A stretch of DNA of 45,165 bases, from IMG/VR virus record IMGVR_UViG_3300020125_000659, positions 1-45,165 of that record; one strand, given 5' to 3'. The translations under genes and the position numbers were made by a program. Below are positions 25,582-41,699 of the stretch, one piece after another (the first letter of the stretch is position 1; every line of letters begins with the position of its first letter). This stretch comes from a virus. The notes beneath the pieces are model-generated. The model made no database searches. It was not told where the DNA came from and saw only the letters and a program-made list of their open reading frames with translations.

Positions 25582-25824
25582 CTACTGCCCCGGCTGGGCT
25601 CTGTGAGGATCGGTCATGTCGACATAACCATCACAACCCTTGCAATGTTTTGGGGCGCCAACATGCATGTTAATTCCCTCACACTTTACATCTTGTCCTT
25701 GTCCTTGTCCGGGTACGACTTTTTGGGCTTCTTTTTCGACTTTGACATCTTTTGGCGCCTCCTTTGGCGGTTGTGAGATTGTTACTGATTCAACATCTGA
25801 GACTGGAACTTTAACTTCCGTCAT
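25582..25824 (-). CDS. Small Cys-containing hypothetical protein
   Basis: The 80-residue protein has a disordered Val/Lys/Pro/Gln-rich first half and a short second half with C, C and C (CEGI and CKGC) plus His, possibly a zinc knuckle. It overlaps the end of the portal gene as ATGA. No family recognised. Confidence 0.6.
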   Translation of the reverse strand: MTEVKVPVSDVESVTISQPPKEAPKDVKVEKEAQKVVPGQGQGQDVKCEGINMHVGAPKHCKGCDGYVDMTDPHRAQPGQ

Positions 25825-27986
25825 TGTGTTCCTCCTCCTTGTAGTTGCTGCATTAAGGCCGAAAGTTGATCCGATCCGGGCGCACTAGGTTGATTTTGCG
25901 GCCGGGGACCACCAGAAGCTTGTCCGCCATTTCCACCCCCATTCTTTCCACTATTCAAAGCCATAATCGTCTGCAACTGCTGCATTTGTTGTTGTTTTTG
26001 CTGATCAGCAATTTGCTTTTGGATCACCTGGGTTGTATCTTCGATATGTTTATCCCATCTTTCAAGTTCATCTGGATCCTTAATCTTCGCTCGATCTAAA
26101 TAATGCTGCTTAAGATGCGCCTGGTTGTCATCTCCCGGCGAAACAGCAATCGGTCGATCTTGCTGATTAAGTTTGAATTCCAATTCTGGATCGACAGAAA
26201 AACTATAACCACCAGGATTAAACATCTCTTGTGCATCTTGAAGACCCAGTCCTTCGGTCCAGATTTTCTTAACCAGCCAAGGCCAATTTACTTGTTGCAA
26301 AACCTGCGGCGGCAGGCCACGAGCGATATTAAGAAAATTAATCATCTGCTGTCCAAGAATCTGCCTATTTCTCGAAGCAATCGAGCCCATCCATTTGAAT
26401 TCGTAGTTTCCAATAATATCTTCGATCGAAACTTCTTTCTGAATCAAAGGCGCCCCTCGGCGGCCGAGGATTCGAAGGAGAATAGTTTCATCCATAAACT
26501 GCTCAATAAGCGAATAAGACATTTCAAGCAGCGGCTCACCGAATTGCTCTTCCAAATCCTCGATGATTTGCGTCATCGGGAGAGAGCCTTGGGAGATCAT
26601 GGTGGAAAATCCAGCGGCGGTATTTTGTGCTCTCCCGCGCCCGCGAACCGCAGGCTGGCCTTGCATTGCGGCATTTGCGCCCGAAAAATCCTGCATAAAC
26701 CCCTGAAGCATCGAAAGCGTCTGAAAGCCAATCTGAGCTACCGAGGCAGGTTTCGTGAAAACAACGCTCTTAAGAGGATCCGCCATGAGCCATTTGGCTC
26801 CAGGGTGAAAACGGATAGAATTAGAATAAGCAACAGACCCAGGATCCACAATAGTAATAGGATTAAGCTCATATTGCACCGAATCCATAGTTTGATTGAC
26901 CATATCGTTTAGCATATACTGAACTCGGTCAATCGTATCCATAATTCCACGACCATAAAACTCATCAATAACCCGAATCAGTCGGGGAACAAAAAAGGGC
27001 TTCTTTTTATGCCAAAAAGGATTCTCCTGAATCCGAACCACATGCCAGTCGTTGATGACGGTTATCAGCCACTCTTTCTCACCTGTTCCATCAATATCCC
27101 GAGTCCAATAAAGCTCCGAAAGGTTTCGATGATTTTTCGAAAGATCATTCCACCGATCCGAAGGATCTTGCGAAAGACCAAAGCGTTGGAGTTTTTCGCG
27201 CCGAAATCTAAACCAATCCCGGCCGCGATTTGTCGGACCGGTTTGATTATAAACCTCCTCAGGAACAACATAAACGGTTCCAAGTTTCTTATCGTTCGGA
27301 TTAATAGGCTTCGAGCCCATTTCTTTAATGTGCTCAACCGAAACTTCAATATCCTCCCAAGCCAACTCGCAATCTTGGACATCCAAAGCCGTTGTGGGCC
27401 AAACATAGAAGTTAAACAAATTCCGAGCCCGAAAAAGCGGACCATACTGATACTTCACATTCTTATTAACCATCTTATAACGCTCATTCTGCTGAATAAG
27501 TTTGAGCGCTTTTACCATCTTATCTTTGTCGGCAAAAGTCAGCTTTCCAGGCGAAGTTCCATAAGTTACTAACTGCCTAATAAAAGGAATCGAATCCGAT
27601 TTGATCTTTTGCTGCTTTTTGAAAAAGTAGTAAAACAAATGCTCCAACGAATCCGCCCGCATCTCATCCGCAATTTCATCAACATTCAAAACCTGAAACC
27701 AGTCATCTGAGGCGGGAAAGAAGTCTCGAATAATCGAGCTAGTCCAAGTTTCACAAGTTTGCCTAGCTGCGGCAAGAAAAATCTTACTCCGGCCAGAATA
27801 CGAATTTTTGTCCAGCTCACAATTCCAAATCCTATAATATCTCTGCCACTTCTCCTCCGCCCGAATCCGATCATACCGAATCCGCATCAAAAGCGGAACA
27901 AGTCCTCTTTCCACCTCATCCAAAATCTCCGAATCCATCGCCAGATTTGGATATGGGACTCGAATCGAAGTCTTCAAGTTAGCCAT
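25821..27986 (-). CDS. Portal protein
   Basis: The 721-residue protein fits podovirus portals by size, place and pattern: an EEKWQRYYRIWN helix near residues 43-54, an RSKIFLAAARQTCETWTSS segment, a long wing, GRGIMDTIDRVQYMLNDMVN near the stem and crown, and a Gln-rich C-terminus. Twelve copies would form the ring through which the terminase pumps DNA. It starts directly after the stop of the previous gene. Scaffold and capsid genes follow, as usual. Confidence 0.86.
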   Translation of the reverse strand: MANLKTSIRVPYPNLAMDSEILDEVERGLVPLLMRIRYDRIRAEEKWQRYYRIWNCELDKNSYSGRSKIFLAAARQTCETWTSSIIRDFFPASDDWFQVLNVDEIADEMRADSLEHLFYYFFKKQQKIKSDSIPFIRQLVTYGTSPGKLTFADKDKMVKALKLIQQNERYKMVNKNVKYQYGPLFRARNLFNFYVWPTTALDVQDCELAWEDIEVSVEHIKEMGSKPINPNDKKLGTVYVVPEEVYNQTGPTNRGRDWFRFRREKLQRFGLSQDPSDRWNDLSKNHRNLSELYWTRDIDGTGEKEWLITVINDWHVVRIQENPFWHKKKPFFVPRLIRVIDEFYGRGIMDTIDRVQYMLNDMVNQTMDSVQYELNPITIVDPGSVAYSNSIRFHPGAKWLMADPLKSVVFTKPASVAQIGFQTLSMLQGFMQDFSGANAAMQGQPAVRGRGRAQNTAAGFSTMISQGSLPMTQIIEDLEEQFGEPLLEMSYSLIEQFMDETILLRILGRRGAPLIQKEVSIEDIIGNYEFKWMGSIASRNRQILGQQMINFLNIARGLPPQVLQQVNWPWLVKKIWTEGLGLQDAQEMFNPGGYSFSVDPELEFKLNQQDRPIAVSPGDDNQAHLKQHYLDRAKIKDPDELERWDKHIEDTTQVIQKQIADQQKQQQMQQLQTIMALNSGKNGGGNGGQASGGPRPQNQPSAPGSDQLSALMQQLQGGGTQ

Positions 27987-31300: not shown

Positions 31301-31441
31301 TTTAATCGAAGTTTGCTCTGAAATTCCGGTCCCCGTAATAGTCAAATACCCAATATCTAAAGTATCAAATCCATCCAAAGCTTTCCGAACAGCGAAAGCC
31401 TGAGAGGGAATTAACAAAAATATAAGTAGCCAAATCTTCAA
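28328..31441 (-). CDS. Secreted-type SGNH hydrolase with cysteine-rich repeats
   Basis: The 1037-residue protein starts with a signal peptide (LLIFLLIPSQAFA, cut near residue 17). Residues 20-240 look like a concanavalin-like beta domain. SGNH/GDSL blocks follow: GYDSVTRG at 413-420 (S416 nucleophile; Tyr replaces the usual block I Gly), CGINANEI near 474-481, GFND at 608-611, and DAVH at 911-914 for the Asp and His. Between and after these blocks lie many C-x4-6-C repeats of the form CSTNADCSGVGTC, about 430-450, 516-595, 650-750, 878-900 and 938-1026. It may de-esterify a surface glycan, as a tail spike or a secreted protein. Its C-terminus overlaps the next gene. Confidence 0.72.
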   Translation of the reverse strand: MKIWLLIFLLIPSQAFAVRKALDGFDTLDIGYLTITGTGISEQTSIKRTGLGSLKIVRAATTASAVLLEIYTPADSDIYARIYPRIDVLPTTTGAPIFGFTDDFLAYGCRVDIELDGSWSLRYKDRSTYGDFGFTPIQSTGVFISAELHQTNGSTGSCAGPSCSVTCELWLNGVKVLGTTNTDITSGDYIIPTRVYGGAQTTEGGGYTAYYDDFAGDDSTHIGVGRVSGLFPVSDGTPNQWNNTCTGSHAGCIDDFATGAEDDTGTDWQRETTSGNKTTVTLTPLTLASGESLSSVFSFAYAKSVTADARDYRLNQCDGSSSPTNCRNGTTDSPSAVSFVRGSKLLRVLAPDDTAWTQTKLTNLSLQIEHRTNVGNIDVTAIMAYADIREPDPIPIQNLQDKNGDNRLTLAFGYDSVTRGTLGGTCAGNVSIACSTNTECLAYGGICANTFKYSNFLASYVTQHFGKATTILNCGINANEIIGWQSRLPTILTGIGLPDLRYCVTSMPTTCTVDVCDGGANSGAACTVASQCPGSTCAQCSGPECGSTQCTNGHQVNFGCMRSCDLIIGSRICHSGTNAGNDCLVSSECPGSTCSDYPAPDYVFSLGGFNDSSIGNDSGGYFGGGPPMTAPTPQSTPKAGDGYTVQRVACNNDNDCSTGLCSGNLQQACSTNADCSGVGTCTIAPLSGELPWPNLLGAHACSSTCSNALNNICSADNICLGSGTCTGSKVCVSTCGRQPCSTDLDCGPAVIKKINNYTWIPNLYGTCVSGHCTNCGSPGCPSSPDTPQHKRLRADRGPAFHLNRFAATQKLVESAGARHIWLSMGSTFGGICDLGSGASDVISDLVVERQWELGLKKYVIDIFPIWRSRDMLITNRRCNNDATKICFTNSNCTGTGATCVDYASTFRAYGDAVHMDEPGAAMVGKTVWDVIQHWHPVCSGDTTVNCGECHDGTIFKTTTCTTSNDCSGISGCTVLGQMICTCRAHDSICSGTGKGVCSEERAGSLCHLDPSTTCTTNADCVGKGICRPEGLLAPAQG

Positions 31442-34400
31442 TTCAAACTCTCAATCGTTACAATATCACCCGTGATTGTGTTCAAAGAATTTGCGGTTCC
31501 CCAAGTTACTTTTATATCAAGTGCCTTTGTAACGTTCGTCGCCACTGAGACCGGCTGAGTAGTAGAAGACAGTTCCGAAATATAAGGCGCATCTGCCAAA
31601 ACAAGCGCCCCGGCCGTTACGGTTGGAGGATTTGTTACAACAAATTTAAAAAGTCCCTCACATTGAATATTCGCACTCGCGCCTGGGGCTGAGCGGGCTT
31701 GGATATAGGCTTCAAGCATAAATTGCCTATTCCCAGTAAGAGTTGGAAGGGTATTAGCTCCGGTAGAGCAAAGCACCGTAGCTCCAGCATAGAGCTTAAT
31801 ATTCAAAGTCGGCGAGCTAGTTGTTCCAACCGTTCCAAGAACAACTAGCCTAATAACTCTTCCAAGCCGCCAAAAATTCGCTGGAAGAGTTAGAGAACCA
31901 TTAGAAATGGTACCAATAATACTAGTTTCCGTAACCGTATTTGCTACAGTCGCAGCCGCGCTAGAAGTTGCTGGGGAGGTAGAAAATTTATGTGGAGTTA
32001 CTCCATCTGCAAGTTCCCCACAAGCAGAGCTATTAAAACTATTATTCATCTGACAACTAAGAGCTGATCCACCAAAATTAGAAAGGGTTATACTAACTCG
32101 ATTCGTAGCAAATCCCAATGCCCCAAGCCCACCAGCATCAGAAAGTGTTGCATGACAAGCTTTTGTTTGATCTGCCATCAAACAAAGATTCCCGGAAGCA
32201 GAATCACTACTATTATTTGGAATAATCCTATCGAGATTTGTTAGTTCATGGACGGAGATTTTATTAGTATTTATTTCTGGAGTTACTGTCGCAGTAGGAG
32301 TCGGTGTCCTCGTTGCAGTAAAAGTTGACGCAGGTGGAGTAGGAGAAAGAACAGGAGTCGTAGTCGGCGATACTGTAGGGGTCGGAGTAGGGGTTACAAT
32401 ATCCTTGTTATAAAAATTCACTGGCCCATTTATAGTCTGCTTTCCATGAAGCATTAAAACTTCTTGTCGAACCGAGCCATCTCCAAGTCCCCAAACATCC
32501 AAAACACTATCCCAACAGGCTCGCCCTTCGGAAGCCACTAAAGAACAATCCGTCTTTCTTGGGGCATCCAAAACGCCAACATTTGCGTCCGAGCTCCAAT
32601 CAACCACAACGCCGGGGGGAATGGTTACTGGATTATTAAAGCAAGTTCCTTGAATTAATCCTCCACATTGTGTAACCGTGCTTGGGAGATCTGTAGAATC
32701 TATTAGTCTCCAAGTTGGAACCCCTGGAGTTGCTCCGCCAGCGGTTGGACCAGCCAAAAATTGACCAGAACCAGGAGTAGCTGTAGCTATTCCTGTTGAA
32801 GTTGGTGTAGCAGTAGGAGTTGAGGTAGCCGTAGCCGTTGGAGTGGCTGTTACAGTAATAGTAGGCGTAGAAGTAGCTGTTGGCGTAGAACTAGGAGTTG
32901 CCGTCCTACAAATCGGCGAATTATTCAACCCCTCCGCCAAATTTCCCGCCCCACAATCCCAAGGAGTTTGGGTGGGAAGTTGGGTAATAGTTACTGTTGC
33001 AGTTGGAGTAGGAGTAGGAGTTATGGTCGGCGTTGAAGTCGCAGTAGGAGTTGCGGTTACTGTAACTGTAGGAGTCGAAGTCGCGGTGGGCGTTGAAGAT
33101 GGAGTGGCTGTTCTACAAATTGGTGAATTGCCCATCCCCTCTTGGAGATTGTGTGATCCACAATCCCAAGGAGTTATAGTTGCAACCGGGGAGCCTCCTG
33201 TTCCACAATCATTCGCTGCACTAGAAAGCTCCGAGCCATCAAAGCGAACGCATTTATTTGCGGTCAAAGAGCTAGTATGAATAAACCCACCAACGTTAAT
33301 ATCTCCATCAGTTTGTAAACTAGCATCACCACCTGTGTTTGTTATCTGAATCTGATTTGTCGAAACCTTTATATGTGGATCTTGCGCTGAAGAGCCATTT
33401 CCATCAAAAATCCAATTAATACTAGTAAACGTATTCCCATTATCCCCAAAAGTTACATTATCCATCTTTGATGGATCGAGATTGATAGTGTTTCCACCGG
33501 TTATTGTTATATAGTTTCCCGAAACAAATCCCCCAGTGGTATCACCATTCGGACAATCTCCAGCCGCAGAAACAAGGCTAGTTCCATCAAACCGAACACA
33601 ACTATTAGTTATAAAACCAATCTGAGCCGTTCCACCATTGGCAATTGGAAGAGTGCCTTTGATTTCATTATTTATTGTCGAACCTGGACCAAGAGTTACA
33701 CAGCCAGCGCCGTTACAAGAGACATCATTTGCAAGAACATTTCCAGAAAGCGAAGCGCCACCTGAAACAATCATCGGGCCGGCGGTGGTGTTTGTTCCTC
33801 CGGTAAGGGCTGAAAAAGCGGGCGGGGAAACAGCAGGACAGTTTGTACCATCCGAAAGACAATATTGATTACAAGCTATCCCCGGACAACTTCCCCCACC
33901 TCCCCCACCCGTGACGGTGCAAACATTCGGATTCCCCGAAACACAGGTCATCCCAATAATCTGCAAAGCCTCATCACAGGCATTGGAAGTGAAGGTTCCA
34001 TTATCTGCGATTATTTGTCCAAAAGCCTTATTGCATGCAGAAACAACTCCACTGGTTGTTCCCCCATCCGATGGACCAAACAAGCTTCCCCCGGCACCGT
34101 TGCCACAATTGGGACAAGCTGTCTGTACTCCTACAGGAAAAGGGCTGGGGGTAGACGTACCTCCAGGCGTCGCAGTTGGGCTGGGAGAGATAGTAAAAGT
34201 TGGCGTTGCAGTCTTAGTTGTAGTTGCCGTTGCTGTTGCCGCCGAAGTTGGAACAAAAGTAGAAGTTGGAGAAAGCGTCGGAGTCGTTGTTGGAGTAGAC
34301 GTTGGAGTTGGAGTTGGAGTATTAGTTGGGCTAGTTGTAGCTGTTGGAGAAAGAGTTGGAGTGCTAGTTGGAGTAATAGTTGGAGTTGGTGTAATTCCCG

Positions 34401-37170
34401 TTGGAGTTGGCGAAGTAGTGGGCGTTGGTGTTGGTCCGCCAAGCTCGTCAGCTCCAATATCAAAAGCCACACTTTGCGGCCGGGGAGCGCCCTCAAAATC
34501 CACAGGAACATCGACAGACAAGGTATTTCCTAAATTATATGCTGTTCCTCCGGCGGTTGTAAGTTTCAAGGTTGGGGGATAACCAGTTTCGTCAACAAGC
34601 GGATCGCCATAAATACTATGCGGATCAAGAGTATTAATGCAATCCGAAGTACAAAGCCCTCCTCGGCGATAGTTTGTTCCATGAAAAGAAACAATTGTAG
34701 TACAGCCAGGGCAATCATAAGTATTATAGTTAAAGGCATTTACGCCAGGGATAAGGTTGGTAATATTAACCAATCCCGCCGAGGGCGTGAGAGCTTTATT
34801 AAGAAAAATGTTATTTGTAATCGAAATCGACCCAGTCCAACTAGCCGTACCTGCATCACAATTGGCATCATCAATACTTGCCAGTAAGTTTTCAGCGAAA
34901 GTGTTGTTATAAATCTTCGTTGGCCCGCCCGTAACTGGCCCACTGGGGCAAAGCTGAACCCCAATATCCGAATCGTAGAAACGATTATTCTTTATAATCG
35001 TTCCTGTATAACTAGTAGCTCCATTGAACCAAATCCCGCGTCCAGAAGAACGTAAGGTTTTGATGGTATAGAACAAATTACTATCCATCGTAATATTGTC
35101 GCCGCCACCCTCAACACTAATTCCCTGAGCATCGCCAACACAACCACCACCCATTTCGTGAATAGTATTTCCAAACGCGGTTGAGCCAGAAGAAACCGAA
35201 AACCGAATCCCAGTTCCATTATCCGTCAATCCAGCTGGGCAGCCCGCGACAGTTCCAGTACAAAGTGGAAACAACGGAGGAACCTGAATTGCATAGATGT
35301 TGTTATTCGAAACTATTCCTGTCAAATCCGATTCCATGCGGATACCTTCTTGTCCGCAGTGGTGGATTGTGTTGCCAATCATTTCGTTGTCACGAGCTGC
35401 GAGCGAGCCTGAGCCGCTCGCATCAATACAACGATCCATCACATAACCAATATCGAGGTTATAAAAATGCTGTGCCGAATTGGCAAAAAGCCGCGCAATG
35501 CCATAAACTCGTTCGCGCTGAATCTTTAGCTGCCCACCACTGGGATTGGAACGAAAGGTGATGTTATCTCCACCTCCGCCATTTTGCAGATTGATTGCAG
35601 CAAGATCAGTCGGAATCTTCACATAAGTTGCTGTGTTTGGATTTGCCCCACTAGCCAAGTGCAAGCAAACCGCGCCGGCAACATACCGAAACATTCCGGC
35701 TGGAACCGTCGAATCACAAGCCGTAGAAGATCGATCAATATGATTTTCCTGCTCCGATCCTGAGCCTTCCAAAGACCAAACCGCAAAAGGATATTGTCCC
35801 GAAACTCCACAAGTTCCACTAGTACAATTAAAAACCCCCGAGCCGATCGAAGACCAAGTTGATCCATGAATATCTGTTGTACCATCAAAAATTGTTGTAT
35901 CGCCGGCAAAGTTCTCAACCGTTACAGGATTTCCAGCTGTTCCATAACAAGCCACCGGCCAATCCCAGCGTTTGTAAACCTGCCCACTTTCTCCTCGAAG
36001 CTCAAGAAAATCTCCTGGTCCGACCCCTGTGGTCCCACCAGCACAAGAAACATTCGCTTCCGAGTTCCATGCCCCAGTTCCCCCAGGAGATCCTGCACAG
36101 CTTGAGGCTTTGCCATCGCCATTGTTAGAGCAAGTTTGATCGACATACCAAATATCATTTGGTCCGGGCGTGGCCGAAGTTGTGGGAGTTGGAGTCCTAG
36201 AAACTGTTGGCGTAGCTGTCGGTGCTGTAGAGGTTGGGGATAAAGTTGGAGTCGGAGTAGTTGTTGCTGTTGGAGTAACTGTTACCGTCGGCGTTGCGCC
36301 GGTACAAGCTCCAGTTACAATCGCGCTATTCCAAGTCGGCGAAACAACTCCAGTACAAACTGCGTTGTTGTTTGTTGCGGCAGCATCGTCGACGCCATTT
36401 TGCCCACCAGAACAAGCTCCAGAAGCATGATCCCGCATTCCCCAAACTGAAACTAAATTCGGCGCAGAGGAAGAAATCTGACAAGCCGAATTTGCTAAAA
36501 GATTTGTGGTACTCTGTGCTCCAGTCCATTGGCGGACTTCTTCAACACGAATGTTTAGGGTTGGAAGAAAATTACCGTTGTTTGATGCGCCAACAGAACC
36601 AGTGCCATAAGTTACGTTTACAACATCTCCCGCTCCACAACCTAGCAATCCACCATCTTTGAAAACACACATATCCCCAACAGACCGACCCGCACAGGCG
36701 TTGTTTGTTGTATCTCCCGCACAAAAAATACAAGCAACCTCATGCGGATTTGTATCAAACGTAACTGTCTGAGCTGTTTCTGTTGCGCCACAACGACATC
36801 TAACTTTTTGAACCCCGCCACCCGGATCCCATTGAACAGCCAAACCCATTTCATTAGTTGCCGCACAAACCCCGCTGTTACAATCCGCCGCAACTGCACA
36901 TGCGGCTCCGGCGTTTGTTCCACCAACACAAACCAAAGCTCCGGCTTGGCCCGCAATAAATTGTTCCCGCGTGCCCGGAGGGCTGGAGCCCATCAACACA
37001 ACACCTTCCAAAGTTGCTGCTGTTCCAGAATTACAATCAAAAGGTGAAACAAGAGGATTCGTAGTAGTAACCGCCGCGCTTGAACCTTGAGCTGTAAAAT
37101 CCAACGAAGCCAAGGCTTCGCCCTCAAAGCTCAAAAGAAAACCAATTACTACCAGAATCCTAATCATCAT
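31438..37170 (-). CDS. Giant secreted-type fibre protein: beta-helix, Thr-Pro linkers, C-terminal knob
   Basis: The 1910-residue protein begins with a signal peptide (ILVVIGFLLSF to ALA, cut near 22). A cysteine-rich repeat (CVGGTNAGAACAVAADC) lies near residues 80-105. Five Thr/Pro/Ser-rich linkers stand near residues 290-333, 910-1010, 1350-1393, 1420-1463 and 1592-1629. Between the first two is a right-handed beta-helix-like region (about 334-907). Residues 1020-1340 hold fibre repeats with CVRFDG motifs, and the last 280 form a beta-rich tip. It is the only obvious receptor-binding fibre candidate. ATG 37170 overlaps the upstream stop as ATGA. Whether it is in the virion or exported is open. 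Confidence 0.7.
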   Translation of the reverse strand: MMIRILVVIGFLLSFEGEALASLDFTAQGSSAAVTTTNPLVSPFDCNSGTAATLEGVVLMGSSPPGTREQFIAGQAGALVCVGGTNAGAACAVAADCNSGVCAATNEMGLAVQWDPGGGVQKVRCRCGATETAQTVTFDTNPHEVACIFCAGDTTNNACAGRSVGDMCVFKDGGLLGCGAGDVVNVTYGTGSVGASNNGNFLPTLNIRVEEVRQWTGAQSTTNLLANSACQISSSAPNLVSVWGMRDHASGACSGGQNGVDDAAATNNNAVCTGVVSPTWNSAIVTGACTGATPTVTVTPTATTTPTPTLSPTSTAPTATPTVSRTPTPTTSATPGPNDIWYVDQTCSNNGDGKASSCAGSPGGTGAWNSEANVSCAGGTTGVGPGDFLELRGESGQVYKRWDWPVACYGTAGNPVTVENFAGDTTIFDGTTDIHGSTWSSIGSGVFNCTSGTCGVSGQYPFAVWSLEGSGSEQENHIDRSSTACDSTVPAGMFRYVAGAVCLHLASGANPNTATYVKIPTDLAAINLQNGGGGDNITFRSNPSGGQLKIQRERVYGIARLFANSAQHFYNLDIGYVMDRCIDASGSGSLAARDNEMIGNTIHHCGQEGIRMESDLTGIVSNNNIYAIQVPPLFPLCTGTVAGCPAGLTDNGTGIRFSVSSGSTAFGNTIHEMGGGCVGDAQGISVEGGGDNITMDSNLFYTIKTLRSSGRGIWFNGATSYTGTIIKNNRFYDSDIGVQLCPSGPVTGGPTKIYNNTFAENLLASIDDANCDAGTASWTGSISITNNIFLNKALTPSAGLVNITNLIPGVNAFNYNTYDCPGCTTIVSFHGTNYRRGGLCTSDCINTLDPHSIYGDPLVDETGYPPTLKLTTAGGTAYNLGNTLSVDVPVDFEGAPRPQSVAFDIGADELGGPTPTPTTSPTPTGITPTPTITPTSTPTLSPTATTSPTNTPTPTPTSTPTTTPTLSPTSTFVPTSAATATATTTKTATPTFTISPSPTATPGGTSTPSPFPVGVQTACPNCGNGAGGSLFGPSDGGTTSGVVSACNKAFGQIIADNGTFTSNACDEALQIIGMTCVSGNPNVCTVTGGGGGGSCPGIACNQYCLSDGTNCPAVSPPAFSALTGGTNTTAGPMIVSGGASLSGNVLANDVSCNGAGCVTLGPGSTINNEIKGTLPIANGGTAQIGFITNSCVRFDGTSLVSAAGDCPNGDTTGGFVSGNYITITGGNTINLDPSKMDNVTFGDNGNTFTSINWIFDGNGSSAQDPHIKVSTNQIQITNTGGDASLQTDGDINVGGFIHTSSLTANKCVRFDGSELSSAANDCGTGGSPVATITPWDCGSHNLQEGMGNSPICRTATPSSTPTATSTPTVTVTATPTATSTPTITPTPTPTATVTITQLPTQTPWDCGAGNLAEGLNNSPICRTATPSSTPTATSTPTITVTATPTATATSTPTATPTSTGIATATPGSGQFLAGPTAGGATPGVPTWRLIDSTDLPSTVTQCGGLIQGTCFNNPVTIPPGVVVDWSSDANVGVLDAPRKTDCSLVASEGRACWDSVLDVWGLGDGSVRQEVLMLHGKQTINGPVNFYNKDIVTPTPTPTVSPTTTPVLSPTPPASTFTATRTPTPTATVTPEINTNKISVHELTNLDRIIPNNSSDSASGNLCLMADQTKACHATLSDAGGLGALGFATNRVSITLSNFGGSALSCQMNNSFNSSACGELADGVTPHKFSTSPATSSAAATVANTVTETSIIGTISNGSLTLPANFWRLGRVIRLVVLGTVGTTSSPTLNIKLYAGATVLCSTGANTLPTLTGNRQFMLEAYIQARSAPGASANIQCEGLFKFVVTNPPTVTAGALVLADAPYISELSSTTQPVSVATNVTKALDIKVTWGTANSLNTITGDIVTIESLN

Positions 37171-37478
37171 GGCTCCTGTGAACAACACCAGGTAACGTCT
37201 GCTGTACCGCCAGTAACACTTGCTGTCATGGTATCAGCCATTCCGTTGAAAAAAGCCGTAACCGTTCCGGTGCTAAGAGTTGCCATGGTAAAGGTTGAAG
37301 AATTTCCAATCGTTCCAGTAATAAGAACCGTCGGTGAACCAGCTGTTACAACAATCCCGGACCGACAAGGTCCTTTATATTCGTGAAAATTAAAAGGCGT
37401 TGCTGGAAGTTTTGGAGAAGCTGACCAAGCAAGGGTTGGAAAAAATAACACAACTACCAAAACTAAAAGCTTTCTCAT
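37167..37478 (-). CDS. Small secreted-type beta protein
   Basis: This 103-residue protein has a clear signal peptide (LLVLVVVLFFPTLAWSA, cut near residue 20) and a mature Thr/Gly/Val-rich part with one Cys near 38 and CC near 98. It resembles one small beta domain. It is third in reverse order of the four signal-peptide genes and overlaps the giant fibre gene as ATGA. Function unknown. Confidence 0.65.
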   Translation of the reverse strand: MRKLLVLVVVLFFPTLAWSASPKLPATPFNFHEYKGPCRSGIVVTAGSPTVLITGTIGNSSTFTMATLSTGTVTAFFNGMADTMTASVTGGTADVTWCCSQEP

Positions 37479-37493: not shown

Positions 37494-37649
37494 TTAAGGC
37501 GTAGAAGTTGGAGTTGCAGACGTAGTTGCTGTCGGTGTGGGAGTAGCCGATGGCACCGCATACGGCCCAACACATTTCTGATTCCATCCCCAAGCAAAAC
37601 TAGTTAAGCTAAAGATTGTAAAGAAAAAGAAAAATCCAATGATTTTCAT
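37494..37649 (-). CDS. Tiny secreted-type peptide with Thr-Pro tail, 51 aa
   Basis: The frame starts at ATG 37649, overlapping the TerL nuclease stop as ATGA, and ends at TAA 37494-37496. The product is a signal peptide (FFFFFTIFSLTSFA), a short part with one Cys, and a tail of alternating Ala/Thr/Pro like the linkers of the giant fibre. It may be a cut-down relative of the fibre N-terminus, or a surface peptide. Confidence 0.58.
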   Translation of the reverse strand: MKIIGFFFFFTIFSLTSFAWGWNQKCVGPYAVPSATPTPTATTSATPTSTP

Positions 37650-38485
37650 AACGCCTCTTTTTCTTCGGGAATATCGATTGTGGAAATTATGCTAAGATTC
37701 TTTTGAAACTCCAAAGTCTGAGTGCCTTGAAAATTTACAATGGCGTAACGAATAGGATCGATGATATTTTCGTAGTATCCATCCGAAGAAGGAAGTTCTT
37801 TTTCCGCCCGGCCTTGAACCTGCTCGTCATAATGATACCCACCCCGCAAAGCGTCTCGGAGAAGACTATTTGAAGGGCTATCATTCACAAGAAAACAAGG
37901 CTTTTGTCGATAATTCGAATTCATCAACTTTCTCGTTAGCTCAAGAGTGTGTTCGATCTTAAAATATCTATAGACTGGATTGATTCCAAATTCATTTCTC
38001 AAGATTCTAACTTCCGAATCTCCTGTTGGCCTTTCGAAATCTCCTGCTCTATCACAGCAATCCAAGAATCGACGACCAGGAAAATAAGTAGCAGACTGAG
38101 TGAGAATGTTGCGAACATAAAGACGAAAATCAACATCCGTACCCATGTCGGATTCAAGAACAACGAATTGGACGCCATCGATGAACTGACACCAAGCCAC
38201 AGCAGGATGATGATAGCCGAAATCCCAAGACCGAATAATAGGATACTTCGGCGAGACTTGAATCGGAACAAACATTCTCGCATCGTCATAATCATGGAGA
38301 AAAACCGGCTTTCCGAGGAAAGACGAGAAGTCGATTTCATATTCGCGGTTCCAATCATTAGCTGGGATCCCAGAACTTTGTTCGGCTTTCCAATCTTCCG
38401 AACGTTTTTTCGGATCGGCGGTGTAGTGAAGCTGCATTACGTAGAAACCGTTCTTTTTGTTCCGCCATTCCTTCACACCCTGCAT
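37646..38485 (-). CDS. terL-C: Terminase large subunit, nuclease part (split gene)
   Basis: The 279-residue protein matches the C-terminal half of phage TerL: a linker with DWNREYEIDF near residues 44-53, then RSWDFGYHHPAVAW near 85-98 with the first nuclease Asp, D141 or D146 in a LDCCDRAGD segment, and a final DPIRYAIVNF helix with a late Asp. These fit the RNase H-like metal site. It lacks any Walker A or B; those are in the gene 40337-41224, about 1.85 kb upstream. It overlaps the glycosyltransferase end by 13 bases and has no clear ribosome site, so it may rely on coupling. Confidence 0.82.
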   Translation of the reverse strand: MQGVKEWRNKKNGFYVMQLHYTADPKKRSEDWKAEQSSGIPANDWNREYEIDFSSFLGKPVFLHDYDDARMFVPIQVSPKYPIIRSWDFGYHHPAVAWCQFIDGVQFVVLESDMGTDVDFRLYVRNILTQSATYFPGRRFLDCCDRAGDFERPTGDSEVRILRNEFGINPVYRYFKIEHTLELTRKLMNSNYRQKPCFLVNDSPSNSLLRDALRGGYHYDEQVQGRAEKELPSSDGYYENIIDPIRYAIVNFQGTQTLEFQKNLSIISTIDIPEEKEAL

Positions 38486-39363
38486 AGGGATTCCACAAGA
38501 TCGATGGAATTGTTGAGATCATAAGTCTTTGCCTTTTCCGAAAGTTTCATACATCGATCTTCCATTCGAGAATCAGAAAGGCATCGTTCAATTGCGGCTT
38601 TGAGATCAGCAACCTCGGGCTTGGCGGTGCCAAGGTTTACGCCAATTCCAGTTTTTGCCACCCGCGCAGCCACAAAAGGCTTATCTTCGGTTTCGCCGGC
38701 GCAGATTATTGGTGTTCCATGATAAATTGCCAACGAAACTCCACCAAAACCACCGTTTGTGATGAATAAATCTAGATTTTCCATATAAAGATAGTGCTCA
38801 ATAGCCTCGGAGATGAGATAATAGCTACTTTTACAAGCTTTTTTTGCCGCTTCGATGAGAAATTGATCCTTTTTTGCCACAGTTCCTTGAGTTACGTGGA
38901 TATATGGGCGCTTTTTGCCAAAATTAACAGGTTTTCCCGCTGATTTCCGCACAACTGGGCCGATAAAGTGCAAGTTCCCATGATCTTTCGAGTCTTCGAA
39001 CTCCGGAAGCGAAGCTTGGAGGAACAGATTAGCATCTTCGTAGCGAAAAATCATGGGCAGAGCATTAAAAACCACCCAAGGAATGCCTTTTTGCTTGCAA
39101 AACTCCGCCGCGCCGAGGATTGGCAGCTCAGAAATGATCAAATCCGGGCAGAAAATGCGAGTTTCGAGATCGATTTTGGCGTTTTGGAAGGCTTTTTGGT
39201 CTTGAAAACGGGCTAACCAGACAGATAAAATCGCCGGCGAATCGTCTGGAACCTTGAAACTTAGGTAGGAAATTTGGTGATTTCGATTTTTAAGTGCGTT
39301 TTGAAACACCTTGGCGGGCGTTGAGTGGCCGATATAGTCATATCCGATAAATAAGATCCGCAT
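38473..39363 (-). CDS. GT1-type glycosyltransferase
   Basis: The 296-residue protein fits the UDP-glycosyltransferase (GT1/MGT) fold. The N-terminal acceptor half has IGHSTP near 11-16; the donor half has YIHVTQGT near 154-161 and the sugar-nucleotide signature at 197-243, including NGGFGG and ARVAKTGIGVNL. The usual donor-site His is Asn203. It lies between the two terminase parts and two genes from the Thr/Pro-rich fibre. Possible acceptors are fibre Thr/Ser, host surface glycan or a small molecule; none is shown. A hairpin sits in the 60-base gap before its ATG, and AAAGG is present. Confidence 0.82.
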   Translation of the reverse strand: MRILFIGYDYIGHSTPAKVFQNALKNRNHQISYLSFKVPDDSPAILSVWLARFQDQKAFQNAKIDLETRIFCPDLIISELPILGAAEFCKQKGIPWVVFNALPMIFRYEDANLFLQASLPEFEDSKDHGNLHFIGPVVRKSAGKPVNFGKKRPYIHVTQGTVAKKDQFLIEAAKKACKSSYYLISEAIEHYLYMENLDLFITNGGFGGVSLAIYHGTPIICAGETEDKPFVAARVAKTGIGVNLGTAKPEVADLKAAIERCLSDSRMEDRCMKLSEKAKTYDLNNSIDLVESLCRV

Positions 39364-39377
39364 AATAACCTTTCCAA

Positions 39378-39414
39378 GCCAGCCAAATCGTCCCCCAATA
39401 ACGACTTGGCCGGC
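39378..39414 (-). other. RNA hairpin before glycosyltransferase gene
   Basis: On the minus strand GCCGGCCAAGTCG pairs with CGATTTGGCTGGC over 13 bases with two G-U wobbles and an 11-base loop. No T-run follows. It lies in the only gap near the terminase insertion and may limit read-through or protect the 3' or 5' mRNA end. Confidence 0.5.
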
Positions 39415-39423
39415 CCGGAAAAA

Positions 39424-39663
39424 CTATTCGCCGGCCTGAAGCTTAGCCGTCAAAGCGTCCAGCTGTTCAACCGTAACAGGCGAGCCATTAGCCACCTGCT
39501 GCTTCAAAGTTGCAACATCAGCAATAATTCTATCCACCTCGGTCGACAACGCATCAAATGATTCGGTGAGTCCCATAGTTTTGTCCTCCTGTTCTTTTAG
39601 TCTTTGTTCTATTTTACTGATTAAATCACTGCTATCGCAGTGAAAATAAACATCGATCCTCAT
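39424..39663 (-). CDS. Small coiled-coil protein
   Basis: The 79-residue protein begins with a short beta segment (IDVYFHCD) and continues as one helix with heptad pattern. I have an impression of similar small tailed-phage proteins with an IDVYFH start near lysis or packaging genes, but no function is known to me. It overlaps the upstream gene as ATGA. Confidence 0.65.
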   Translation of the reverse strand: MRIDVYFHCDSSDLISKIEQRLKEQEDKTMGLTESFDALSTEVDRIIADVATLKQQVANGSPVTVEQLDALTAKLQAGE

Positions 39664-39857
39664 ACATAAACGCCTGAGATTTGACGAAAAACCTGACCAA
39701 CCATGTTCCAGCTAAGTTCGATCCATCTTTTGTCCTCCTCAGTAAGCTGCTCTTCAGATTGAAACTTCTCCCAAGCCGCTCGCTGTGGCGACCCAAAAGC
39801 AAAAGAAGCGTTGATGACTTTTGTCAAAGTTGTATTTCCCGTTGTCCCGCCGGCCAT
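39660..39857 (-). CDS. Small hypothetical protein
   Basis: This 65-residue protein has no recognised domain. It starts two bases after the small membrane protein, with AGGAGGC upstream, and overlaps the next gene as ATGA. It lies in the gene block that separates the two terminase parts. Confidence 0.6.
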   Translation of the reverse strand: MAGGTTGNTTLTKVINASFAFGSPQRAAWEKFQSEEQLTEEDKRWIELSWNMVGQVFRQISGVYV

Positions 39858-39858
39858 T

Positions 39859-40017
39859 TTAGCCTCCTACTCTTCCAAGATGACTTCCCAAAAGCTCACA
39901 AGTAAACCAAATTGCCAACCCAAGCCAACCAAAACTCGTTCGGGGCAAGGGAGGAATTTCAAAAGCCGCGAGAAAAAGTAGTACAACTGCGAGAACTTGA
40001 AAAATAAGTAGGATCAT
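39859..40017 (-). CDS. Small two-span membrane protein, 52 aa
   Basis: The frame from ATG 40017 (AGGAGG nine bases upstream) to TAA 39859-39861 gives a 52-residue protein with two hydrophobic spans (about residues 2-19 and 29-45) and a short PLPRTSFGW turn. Many tailed phages carry a similar small membrane protein with a GWLGLA segment. A holin-like or envelope role is possible but not shown. Confidence 0.65.
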   Translation of the reverse strand: MILLIFQVLAVVLLFLAAFEIPPLPRTSFGWLGLAIWFTCELLGSHLGRVGG

Positions 40018-40025
40018 AAATCCTC

Positions 40026-40337
40026 CTAGGGTTTTCCCACGCCTTTTGCCGCCGCGCTAACCCCAGCCTGAATGGCCTGCAACACCGCTGCGGAGATGGC
40101 GTTCGTAACCGCGACTTCACGATTCGCTTCGGCGTTAATTGCGTCTGTGTTCGCCATTGAGCTATAACCATGAACCTCGACGCTTTCGTCGCCTCTTTTG
40201 AACAATACCGACTCTGCCTTGACGTCTTTGCCAGAATCAATTGAAATCGAACCATCTTTGTTCTGGCGGATTTTCATAGTTGTTACATTTGCACAAGAGC
40301 AAAAAACAAATATAACAACTACAAAAATCTTAAGCAT
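40026..40337 (-). CDS. Putative lipoprotein
   Basis: The 103-residue protein starts with a hydrophobic signal (LKIFVVVIFVFCSC), with a weak lipobox FCSC near residues 12-15, then a polar domain and a basic, Ala-rich end. It might be an outer-membrane spanin or other surface lipoprotein, implying a Gram-negative host. ATG 40337 overlaps the end of the TerL ATPase gene. The lipobox is not textbook, so lipid attachment is uncertain. Confidence 0.55.
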   Translation of the reverse strand: MLKIFVVVIFVFCSCANVTTMKIRQNKDGSISIDSGKDVKAESVLFKRGDESVEVHGYSSMANTDAINAEANREVAVTNAISAAVLQAIQAGVSAAAKGVGKP

Positions 40338-41224
40338 CAAGCCACCTCGTCGAAAACCAGGTCTTTAAAAAACCCAGGATGTGCGGAAGAAACTCCGGTA
40401 AACCTGCCAGTACCTTCAATAGTAGGACGTGCTGCCGTATAAGTCTGACGGGCGTGTTCCCAAAAGGCGAACTCATCTGCGAAAATAGCCGTTGCCGACA
40501 ACTGACGCATTTGGTGTTCGCCCTGAGCAACTGCGACGATTTCAGAATGGGTTGTTGTGCAAATAATTCTCCCACGCTTTTGATCCGTCGGCGGAGGCGA
40601 AAAATCTCGGAGATTGTTGATGATGAACTTGGCACGCTTCACTAGTTCAAGAGAGCCTTCCGACTCATCGCGACCTTCTTTGCGTGCAGCAAAGTAAATA
40701 TATTCGCGGTCGTGGAAAAGGAGCAGCCAAACGTGAAGTGCAATACAGGTCCAACTAACCAGCATACGACGCGACTTAGGGACGAGGAGTCTTCTCTCAG
40801 TAAACCAGACGTGGACGAATCGTTCGAGATATTCGAGCTGGGGAAAGGGTTTGATAAGTCCGGCTTTGTCATGGGGATCTTCGGTTAGAACTTGTTCACA
40901 GAGAAATGGCCAAGGATGAGCTTTGTATTTCGCAATTTGCCTCCGGCGAATTAGGATTTGCTGAGCTTTTGCGCGGGCTTGGATAGAACTGAAAGAATTT
41001 CTTGGTCGATTGTTTGAGAGGCTTGGGAGGCTAACTTGTCTGCTATCTGAGTTTCCATCGGGGTTAGATTTCTCGGATCCACAAACCAAACCGCTCCCGG
41101 AGCTATCGAGGCTTCCCTGAGTTTTTGCCGAACCACCCGCAGTGTTTCCGTTGTCAACGGCGGTGGAATCTGAATCGTCGTTCTCAAGGTTGACATTAAT
41201 GTACGGTTCCTTGCCCACTAACAT
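40337..41224 (-). CDS. terL-N: Terminase large subunit, ATPase part (split gene; start unclear)
   Basis: From about base 40940 the frame encodes the N-terminal ATPase of phage TerL: KAHPWPFLCEQ, a Walker A-like PKSRRMLVSW, a Walker B FADEFAFWE and a coupling motif with GVSSAHPGFF, and stops just after it. The nuclease is a separate gene at 37646-38485. The only ATG of the frame (41224) gives a Ser/Asn/Asp-rich first 80 residues that look like a shadow of the 81-residue gene at 40951-41196. Near the domain start there is no ATG, GTG or TTG; CGGAGG is followed by ATT at 40937-40939. A -1 frameshift from the 81-residue gene, a non-standard start or a sequence error are all possible. Confidence 0.78.
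   Translation of the reverse strand: MLVGKEPYINVNLENDDSDSTAVDNGNTAGGSAKTQGSLDSSGSGLVCGSEKSNPDGNSDSRQVSLPSLSNNRPRNSFSSIQARAKAQQILIRRRQIAKYKAHPWPFLCEQVLTEDPHDKAGLIKPFPQLEYLERFVHVWFTERRLLVPKSRRMLVSWTCIALHVWLLLFHDREYIYFAARKEGRDESEGSLELVKRAKFIINNLRDFSPPPTDQKRGRIICTTTHSEIVAVAQGEHQMRQLSATAIFADEFAFWEHARQTYTAARPTIEGTGRFTGVSSAHPGFFKDLVFDEVA
40951..41196 (-). CDS. Small protein between TerS and TerL
   Basis: The 81-residue protein has good codon and residue balance, with APGAVWFVDPRNLTP near 32-46 and a helix after it. Its ATG overlaps the TerS stop as TAATG, with AAGGAA upstream. The TerL frame runs through the same bases in the -1 phase. This frame looks more protein-like. It could be a packaging accessory or the true N-terminus of TerL reached by frameshift. 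Confidence 0.6.
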   Translation of the reverse strand: MSTLRTTIQIPPPLTTETLRVVRQKLREASIAPGAVWFVDPRNLTPMETQIADKLASQASQTIDQEILSVLSKPAQKLSKS

Positions 41225-41699
41225 TTGAAGTCCAATCTGGCAATTCGCCGGTCTTTGAGTAGTGTTCTAGTTCTTCGTCGGTGCAGCGATCCAAAATAGA
41301 ATCCATATCATCCACAACCAAGCGCTGAGTTGCTTTTCCGCAGGCGCGGTCGAGAATGTCGTGGATAGCACGAAGGCGGGTGTTTGGCGAGACTTTGGCA
41401 GATTCGGCAATCTGCATGTTGAGCTGCATCATTCGGGGCGCAACGGCTTTAGCAATTGTTAATGGAGAAAACCTCTCAACTACTGCTGAACCAGAAGCCA
41501 AATTACGAATTGTATTTTCTGTCACATCTTGTTTGGCTTGGAGAAAGAAAGGATCGTTTAAGGTGAGGGAAACTGTTTGAACCGAAATCCCAAGCTCAGT
41601 GGCGATATCGAGATTTTTGATCCCGCGCATGTGGAGCGAAAAGATTCGCAGGTGCAAACCTTTGAGCATGGGCTTTCCTGCTGGGCGGCCGGCGGGCAA
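41196..41699 (-). CDS. terS: Terminase small subunit
   Basis: The 167-residue protein has an N-terminal helix-turn-helix (IATELGISVQTVSLTLNDP near residues 32-50), a long central helical oligomerisation part and an acidic tail. TerS rings bind the packaging site and load DNA to TerL. It is the first gene of the late operon. The start is TTG 41699, with TAGGAGAA nine bases upstream; an ATG at 41669 would cut the basic N-terminus and lacks a ribosome site. The late promoter must lie in 41700-42100 but I cannot fix it. Confidence 0.8.
   Translation of the reverse strand: MPAGRPAGKPMLKGLHLRIFSLHMRGIKNLDIATELGISVQTVSLTLNDPFFLQAKQDVTENTIRNLASGSAVVERFSPLTIAKAVAPRMMQLNMQIAESAKVSPNTRLRAIHDILDRACGKATQRLVVDDMDSILDRCTDEELEHYSKTGELPDWTSNVSGQGTVH

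Follow-up and report, generated by a model that had tools for sequence, protein, structure and literature searches.

The minus strand of the window (the whole 45,165-nucleotide stretch of viral DNA analyzed here) encodes the large terminase subunit, TerL, as two proteins: an ATPase chain and a chain composed of the ATPase lid and the nuclease. The two genes lie 1,851 bp apart, with five ORFs on the same strand between them. To our knowledge, TerL is one protein in nearly all known tailed viruses. The window does not satisfy this single-polypeptide criterion, having two ORFs instead, and its terminase works like TerL, with packaging activity inferred, but is not a standard TerL. It is in our judgment probable that the window encodes a genuine two-chain TerL that assembles in trans, a reading for which there are no protein or biochemical data. 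The genomic-context criterion for TerL is met, as TerS, portal and capsid genes (major head protein) are present. The relevant genes, all on the minus strand, are as follows.

41196..41699, minus strand: TerS, 167 aa, immediately upstream of the ATPase gene, with which it overlaps; matches phrog_2538 (terminase small subunit) at 3.7e-8
40337..41224, minus strand: TerL chain 1, ATPase core, 295 aa, stopping directly after the coupling-motif helix
40026..40340, minus strand: inserted ORF 1, 104-aa lipoprotein (lipobox FCSC), with a 4-nt overlap with the ATPase stop; no confident family
39859..40017, minus strand: inserted ORF 2, 52-aa hydrophobic protein; no family
39660..39857, minus strand: inserted ORF 3, 65-aa protein; no family
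39424..39663, minus strand: inserted ORF 4, 79-aa coiled-coil-like protein; weak matches only
38473..39363, minus strand: inserted ORF 5, 296-aa GT1-like glycosyltransferase (PF06722 9.2e-8, PF00201 8.5e-7), overlapping the nuclease start by 13 nt
37646..38485, minus strand: TerL chain 2, ATPase lid segment and RNase H-fold nuclease, 279 aa; matches TerL structures
25821..27986, minus strand: portal protein, downstream; phrog_1216, 8.9e-27

The initial annotation had proposed a TerL split into ATPase and nuclease genes about 1.85 kb apart, and the ORFs together with profile and fold matches bear this out; the five overlapping, same-direction genes that it placed between the two parts were confirmed as the ORFs at 40340-38473. 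A phrog_2 search revealed no second TerL on the window contig. The same search missed even the known chains in three related loci (L162, L025 and L055), so the absence of another TerL there has not been shown. Promoter and terminator scans gave results at chance level, and no relative of the GT1-like ORF 5 that might indicate its origin was found in viral contigs or phage records.

The chain 1 ORF has the C-terminal end GVSSAHPGFFKDLVFDEVA, followed by the stop codon. Chain 1 matched the PHROG TerL family phrog_2 (3.6e-6), and a profile of the ATPase chains (A5) matched T4 gp17 at 1.7e-20, aligned to gp17 residues 100-300. The ASCE ATPase criterion, i.e., the presence of Walker A, Walker B and coupling motifs, is met by invariant or near-invariant residues at these positions.

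40763..40777, minus strand: deviant Walker A, PKSRRM; K150-S-R-R-M154 is invariant in a 7-sequence alignment and aligns with the gp17 P-loop
40472..40477, minus strand: Walker B, D250-E251, invariant columns
40385..40399, minus strand: coupling motif (motif III/C), ...TGVSSA; S279 is invariant, and the motif is the counterpart of gp17 TTTPNG

The Walker A of chain 1 is the lambda-like deviant form, whereas gp17 has the classical one (GKT).

The chain 2 ORF starts with MQGVKEWRNKKNGFYVMQLHYTADPKKR and contains EYEIDF and RSWDFGY. Upstream of the ATG, which has no clear SD, the reading frame stays open only as far as 38518 and includes no further start codon. A model of chain 2 alone folds confidently (AF2 pLDDT 87.8), and a fold search with it returned TerL structures, namely D6E TerL (7.5e-9), the SPP1 nuclease (5.6e-5) and RB49 TerL. 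Only the fold search gave such matches; sequence searches of the PDB, whether started from the nuclease chain alone or from its profile, returned nothing relevant. Chain 2 shares 33% identity with an intact TerL (2e-21), and the window nuclease is divergent, with 24-33% identity to its relatives. The criterion of an RNase H-fold nuclease with an acidic cluster is met.

38342..38485, minus strand: first 48 residues of chain 2, strands E4-8 and E15-19, helices 30-37 and 42-48
38222..38224, minus strand: nuclease Asp D88 (WDFG), invariant in 38 sequences
38051..38053, minus strand: nuclease Asp D145, invariant in 38 sequences
37757..37759, minus strand: nuclease Asp D243 (DPIRY), invariant in 38 sequences

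As judged from the structural model, the first 48 residues are the equivalent of the C-terminal (lid) part of the TerL ATPase domain, and the same elements recur at 222-273 in the fused TerL of a relative, L010. The downstream frame had initially been described as beginning at the linker before the nuclease; in fact its start lies at the lid segment, about 80 residues N-terminal to the first nuclease Asp.

TerL is thus cut inside the ATPase domain, after the coupling-motif helix (approximately residue 300 of T4 gp17), and not at the ATPase/nuclease border; the second chain therefore carries the lid segment as well as the nuclease. That the upstream frame stops just past the coupling motif, and that the two parts join end to end with little lost, had both been read from the sequence beforehand, and both hold. 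When set against L010 (41% identity to chain 1 and 28% to chain 2), only a linker of about 19 aa is absent and nothing conserved is lost. Beyond its conserved residues, chain 1 extends by 1-2 residues at the C-terminus and chain 2 by 2 residues at the N-terminus. In the AF2 model of L010, whose best fold match was T4 gp17 (9.6e-19; phage D6E TerL, 6.9e-17), the position of the break corresponds to a loop modelled with low confidence (208-215), which connects helix 197-203 to the strands that follow.

A survey of 129 metagenomic or MAG loci with both parts revealed that the junction is family-wide: 84 of the 129 are split at this position and 45 are fused. This set is redundant, and clustering at 85% reduced it to 82 loci (53 split, 29 fused). 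In most relatives, the stop of chain 1 coincides with the end of the core model or lies close to it. Among the 84 split loci, the genes are adjacent in 34, separated by less than 1 kb in 34 and by more than 1 kb in nine, on opposite strands in six and in reversed order in one (L139); spacing ranges from 4-bp ATGA overlaps, seen in L012, L068, L071, L156, L158 and L070, up to 7.3 kb. In L012, a clear SD (AGGAG) is present at the junction. The opposite-strand genes, which are separate transcription units, were observed in at least five samples, in four complete loci (L029, L046, L052, L060) and two cut ones (L036, L053); the four complete loci share 75-90% DNA identity, and both terminase genes are conserved in them. 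The nuclease in these six loci was found by an iterated search of both strands, a one-strand scan having given 34 "ATPase only" loci. Most of the remaining "ATPase only" loci have a short contig or flank, but a few (e.g., L041, L054) yielded no nuclease in the DNA examined despite flanks of several kb on either side. Several chain 2 proteins of relatives carry N-terminal extensions of about 80-110 aa, some intervals in GC-rich relatives include stretches without clear coding character, and intein-like inserts occur at other sites in some relatives (L066, L126).

The initial annotation held that a two-chain motor would be unusual, which is true of known phages but not of the window lineage, given the proportion of split loci and their variable spacing, strand and order. 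It also proposed that an intact TerL in close relatives would expose the split as an artefact. This argument fails: intact forms such as L010 exist, while the nearest ATPase relatives of the window (L025, L162, L170, L055 and L029), from other metagenomes, are all split at the same junction.

Both chains in the relatives are under purifying selection, with dN/dS of 0.02-0.20 and unsaturated dS in nine sets of close relatives, including opposite-strand ones. Distances of the ATPase and nuclease parts correlate (r=0.81, Mantel p=0.001), as would also be expected from plain vertical descent. The nuclease tree did not place the window with the L025 group, which suggested a chimeric origin, with window ATPase and nuclease of different descent. 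This reading was rejected: the AU test did not reject a clade with that group (p 0.70), and the constrained tree was the better one.

Two-gene TerL as such is already known from Arthrobacter cluster AY phages (BillyTP, BlueShadow), in which ATPase and nuclease are encoded in two genes (PMC11920828, PMC12820723). Those genes are consecutive with a 17-bp overlap, in contrast to the 1,851 bp and five ORFs in the window and separations of up to kilobases in its relatives. Chain 1 of cluster AY (359 aa) includes the lid by length and sequence, and chain 2 (198 aa, phrog_9 type) starts at the first nuclease strand, whereas the window is cut earlier, between core and lid; the window therefore does not fit the cluster AY type, in which the genes follow one another directly and are divided at the ATPase/nuclease border. 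Fused TerL proteins of the window's own family (L010, L057 and others) have the same motifs and fold as the window chains, in one chain of 500-550 aa in which the linker takes the place of the window's stop and start. T4 gp17 and D6E TerL resemble the fused relative in fold and, unlike the window, are single chains. Literature searches on split or two-gene terminases returned no description of the core-lid arrangement; one of them turned up only the Jug phages and Parabacteroides phage PDS1. In PDS1, two adjacent CDS (about 337 and 148 aa, 92 bp apart) are annotated as TerL, and the authors of the study suspected that the codon table or the assembly was at fault (PMC10773633); by length its cut is later than that of the window, and membership in the window's family has not been shown. 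A core-lid cut with kilobase-scale or opposite-strand separation appears to be undescribed so far.

Among the other explanations, the one that survives best, albeit improbable, is that the two halves are not parts of a single motor subunit, the core being a stand-alone ATPase and the lid-nuclease chain serving in genome cutting only. The distances and strand differences between the genes, and the N-terminal extensions of chain 2 in relatives, are compatible with separate functions. Against this, the lid segment of chain 2 has no obvious use in the absence of a core, core-lid movement has been implicated in driving DNA translocation (PMC9410871), and fused relatives hold core, lid and nuclease in one chain in the same order. 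Slightly less credible still is a broken terminase, with an insertion disrupting terL and the genome either defective or mis-assembled. The window contig is a single linear metagenomic record with no visible read depth, the cargo in the gap is apparently unrelated, and the window nuclease is more diverged than its ATPase. However, dozens of contigs from different samples have the same junction, selection on both chains in relatives is strong, the catalytic residues are all intact, and the edges of the insert are clean gene overlaps. We give the least credence to the post-transcriptional or post-translational joining of the parts into one ordinary TerL (through a group I/II intron, a split intein, ribosomal bypass or a frameshift): group I introns divide terL of the Jug phages into 2-3 pieces whose splicing to one mRNA is proven (PMC12363816), Mic1 TerL carries inteins (PMC7156551) and intein-like inserts are found elsewhere in relatives, but an Rfam search at E<=1 detected no intron in either the window region or L001/L007-L010/L012, the closeness of the chain ends to conserved residues leaves no intein remnant, and the 4-bp overlap in L012, the opposite strands of L029-type loci and the reversed order of L139 speak against it. 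The criterion of a self-splicing RNA or intein at the junction is not met, and the earlier view that this is not a plain intron stands. Splicing, recoding, inteins and assembly error cannot explain the opposite-strand and reversed loci.

If the window does encode a two-chain TerL, chain 1 would provide the ATPase core, with Walker A, Walker B and coupling motif, and would be translated separately from chain 2. The two chains would then dock and rebuild the shape of a normal TerL, and several such heterodimers may sit at the portal; docking in trans, stoichiometry and packaging activity are all inferred. ATP hydrolysis by chain 1 would produce a movement taken up by the lid of chain 2, whose nuclease would cut the concatemer. 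Since the fused relative has a flexible loop at the junction, a stop and restart there would cost little. Once separate, the halves could host other genes, as in the lipoprotein-to-GT1 cassette of the window, or move apart. The broader proposal is held with less assurance, though we lean toward it: in this broad lineage of uncultured phages, ATPase core and lid are separate proteins linked only by non-covalent contacts, and their genes are free to host cargo, switch strands and repeatedly fuse and split.

TerL is commonly regarded as a hallmark protein made as a single chain, and complete TerL genes serve as phylogenetic and completeness markers; phages with a split TerL would be misread as broken, or missed. 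A natural cut between core and lid yields two chains that can be separately mixed, mutated and titrated, so that models in which packaging is powered by core-lid movement become directly testable. The close fused and split relatives within one family constitute a natural series in which the fission and fusion of genes for an essential motor can be studied.

The terminase large subunit (TerL) of the window is encoded by two genes on the minus strand, where the order is the small subunit (TerS), an ATPase ORF, five small-to-medium ORFs and a nuclease ORF, with the portal and major head protein genes further on:

41699-41196, minus strand: TerS, phrog_2538
41224-40337, minus strand: TerL ATPase ORF (chain 1), 295 aa
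38485-37646, minus strand: TerL nuclease ORF (chain 2), 279 aa

Chain 1 ends in GVSSAHPGFFKDLVFDEVA and chain 2 begins with MQGVKEWRNKKNGFYVMQLHY; the open frame upstream of the latter reaches only 38518 and contains no other start codon. Since the two chains align end to end with fused L010 (L-numbers denote related loci on metagenomic or MAG contigs) and lack only a linker of ~19 residues (FNETEKSTTEEEMDKRKFP and neighbours), the split TerL described in the initial annotation is correct, and the five genes it placed between the halves were all found on the minus strand. Elsewhere in the window, a 1,916-aa ORF downstream of the terminase genes (31438-37188, minus strand) has long Thr/Pro-rich linkers and no PHROG match, an HNH_5-like ORF near the contig end (44149-44697, minus strand) scored 1.2e-5, just under the Pfam cut-off, and a 786-aa ORF (6915-9275, plus strand) carries an unusual fusion of a uracil-DNA glycosylase superfamily domain (PF03167) with a family A DNA polymerase (PF00476).

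Comparison with TerL profiles, a check proposed by the initial annotation, matched chain 1 to TerL phrog_2 (3.6e-6), and a profile of 28 ATPase chains matched T4 gp17 at 1.7e-20 over gp17 residues 100-300. The deviant Walker A (K150-S-R-R-M154), Walker B (D250-E251) and coupling motif (S279) of the window chain are invariant in a 7-member alignment, and K150, R152, D250, E251 and S279 do not vary among 28 members either; we infer that K150 may be a lambda-like deviant Walker A residue. The window nuclease chain had no match in Pfam, and its PHROG match was marginal. With this chain tblastn found an intact TerL (33%, 2e-21), its AF2 model (pLDDT 87.8) matched the folds of D6E TerL (7.5e-9) and SPP1 nuclease (5.6e-5), and three residues, D88, D145 and D243, do not vary across 38 sequences. 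BFVD also contains some short nuclease-like proteins without names (306 and 324 aa), which may be additional members.

Contigs of IMG/VR and GTDB were scanned and loci sorted by HMM classification, which yielded 129 loci with both parts, 84 split and 45 fused. This set is redundant, some loci repeating a contig or near-identical virus; clustering at 85% left 82 (53 split, 29 fused). Among the 84, the halves overlap or are adjacent in 34, are separated by <1 kb in 34 and by >1 kb in nine (at most 7.3 kb, L166), lie on opposite strands in six and are reversed in one. The closest ATPase relative of the window, L025 (54% in the tblastn segment), has its halves 1.33 kb apart. Relatives with the same break, suggested earlier as a search, thus exist: the junction position is common to nearly all split loci. 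Random frameshift errors are an unlikely cause, as they would not cluster at one linker.

Several loci have further peculiarities. On a single contig the nuclease gene precedes the ATPase gene (L139:2199-3825, plus strand). In L126:2402-3979 (plus strand), the split ATPase chain is interrupted at Walker B by an intein-like insert lying between ...SSVL and CDEMAF, so one terminase has both a split gene and a likely intein. Intein-like inserts in the nuclease also occur in L066:7959-10469 (plus strand) and L023/L024, with TerL of 836 and 853 aa; the L066 insert is absent from near-identical L064. Eight nuclease chains (L104, L105, L108, L129, L133, L141, L147 and L157) have an extra N-terminal region of ~80-110 aa, which could be a docking part.

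In L029, L046, L052 and L060 the ATPase gene (230-250 aa, plus strand) and nuclease gene (289 aa, minus strand) are divergent and about 4.6 to 6 kb apart; these contigs share 75-90% DNA identity and have kept both genes, and in L029 a portal ORF follows the nuclease gene on the same strand. Halves on opposite strands rule out splicing, bypass and frameshifting as a general joining route, which bears out the earlier view that this is not a plain intron. The content of the interval differs by lineage, which fits a junction that tolerates insertions rather than one mobile element. No viral relative of the window GT1 was found.

Content of the interval between the TerL halves
Window: lipoprotein to GT1
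L162/L166: endolysin-like gene
L133: DNA methylase
L119: DUF3310
L094: lipoprotein
L001/L008/L009: small conserved protein

AF2 modelled fused L010 with a pLDDT of 84.9 (best match gp17, 9.6e-19). The junction in that model is a loop (208-215, pLDDT<50) preceded by a helix (197-203) that itself follows the coupling motif; strands 222-225, 228-232 and 239-243 and two helices come after it, and the nuclease starts at about 308. Residues 1-360 of gp17 are commonly assigned to its ATPase domain, so a cut near gp17 residue 300 falls inside that domain. The lid segment therefore opens chain 2, which may also include the final strand of the core sheet. The initial annotation was right to assign the nuclease to the downstream frame but not to start that frame at the linker before it, as the lid segment comes first. 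Movement between core and lid has been implicated in driving translocation (PMC9410871).

Across nine groups in which dS was unsaturated, L029/L046/L052 among them, both chains had pairwise dN/dS of 0.02-0.20. ATPase and nuclease distances were correlated (r 0.81, Mantel p 0.001), as expected of co-travelling pairs, though plain vertical descent would give the same. The concatenated tree of 77 rows has a clade of 40 (27 fused and 13 split, the latter mostly with adjacent genes) that holds every fused member except distant L002; the deeper lineages, the window's among them, are all split. At least 10 changes of state are needed there (5 forced by starred branches), 8 in the ATPase tree (4 forced) and 10 in the nuclease tree (2 forced); thus fusion and fission both, or repeatedly, happened, though an uncertain root leaves the direction unsettled. 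L025, L162, L170, L029 and L055 form a group with the window ATPase (92% SH-aLRT). Throughout this group the halves either lie on opposite strands or are separated by >1 kb, and the grouping was not rejected by the nuclease data.

When phrog_2 was used to look for a second TerL, the window and the L029 and L046 contigs showed none other than the ATPase chain already identified; the search was uninformative for L162, L025 and L055, where even known chains were missed, and the window, a virus record, is possibly a fragment. Targeted searches of open-access literature found no description of a TerL split between core and lid, and tblastn of 50,697 phage records with the window ATPase and nuclease and several relatives' chains turned up nothing but distant matches, of which those examined that carry an annotation are TerL genes, whether or not split. 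Cluster AY Arthrobacter phages also have a two-gene TerL, but the genes are consecutive, of phrog_9 type, and divided where the two domains meet (359 + 198 aa) rather than between core and lid. In Jug phages terL is intron-split and spliced. In Parabacteroides phage PDS1 (MN929097, L185:1503-3055) TerL occupies two adjacent CDS, for which its authors suspected a codon-table or assembly issue; it may be worth a second look. None of the three shows a core-lid cut, kilobase-scale separation or halves on opposite strands. We conclude that the window encodes a genuine, functional-looking two-gene TerL, the assembly of its two chains being inferred and not demonstrated, and that it is a variant of the two-gene TerL already known.
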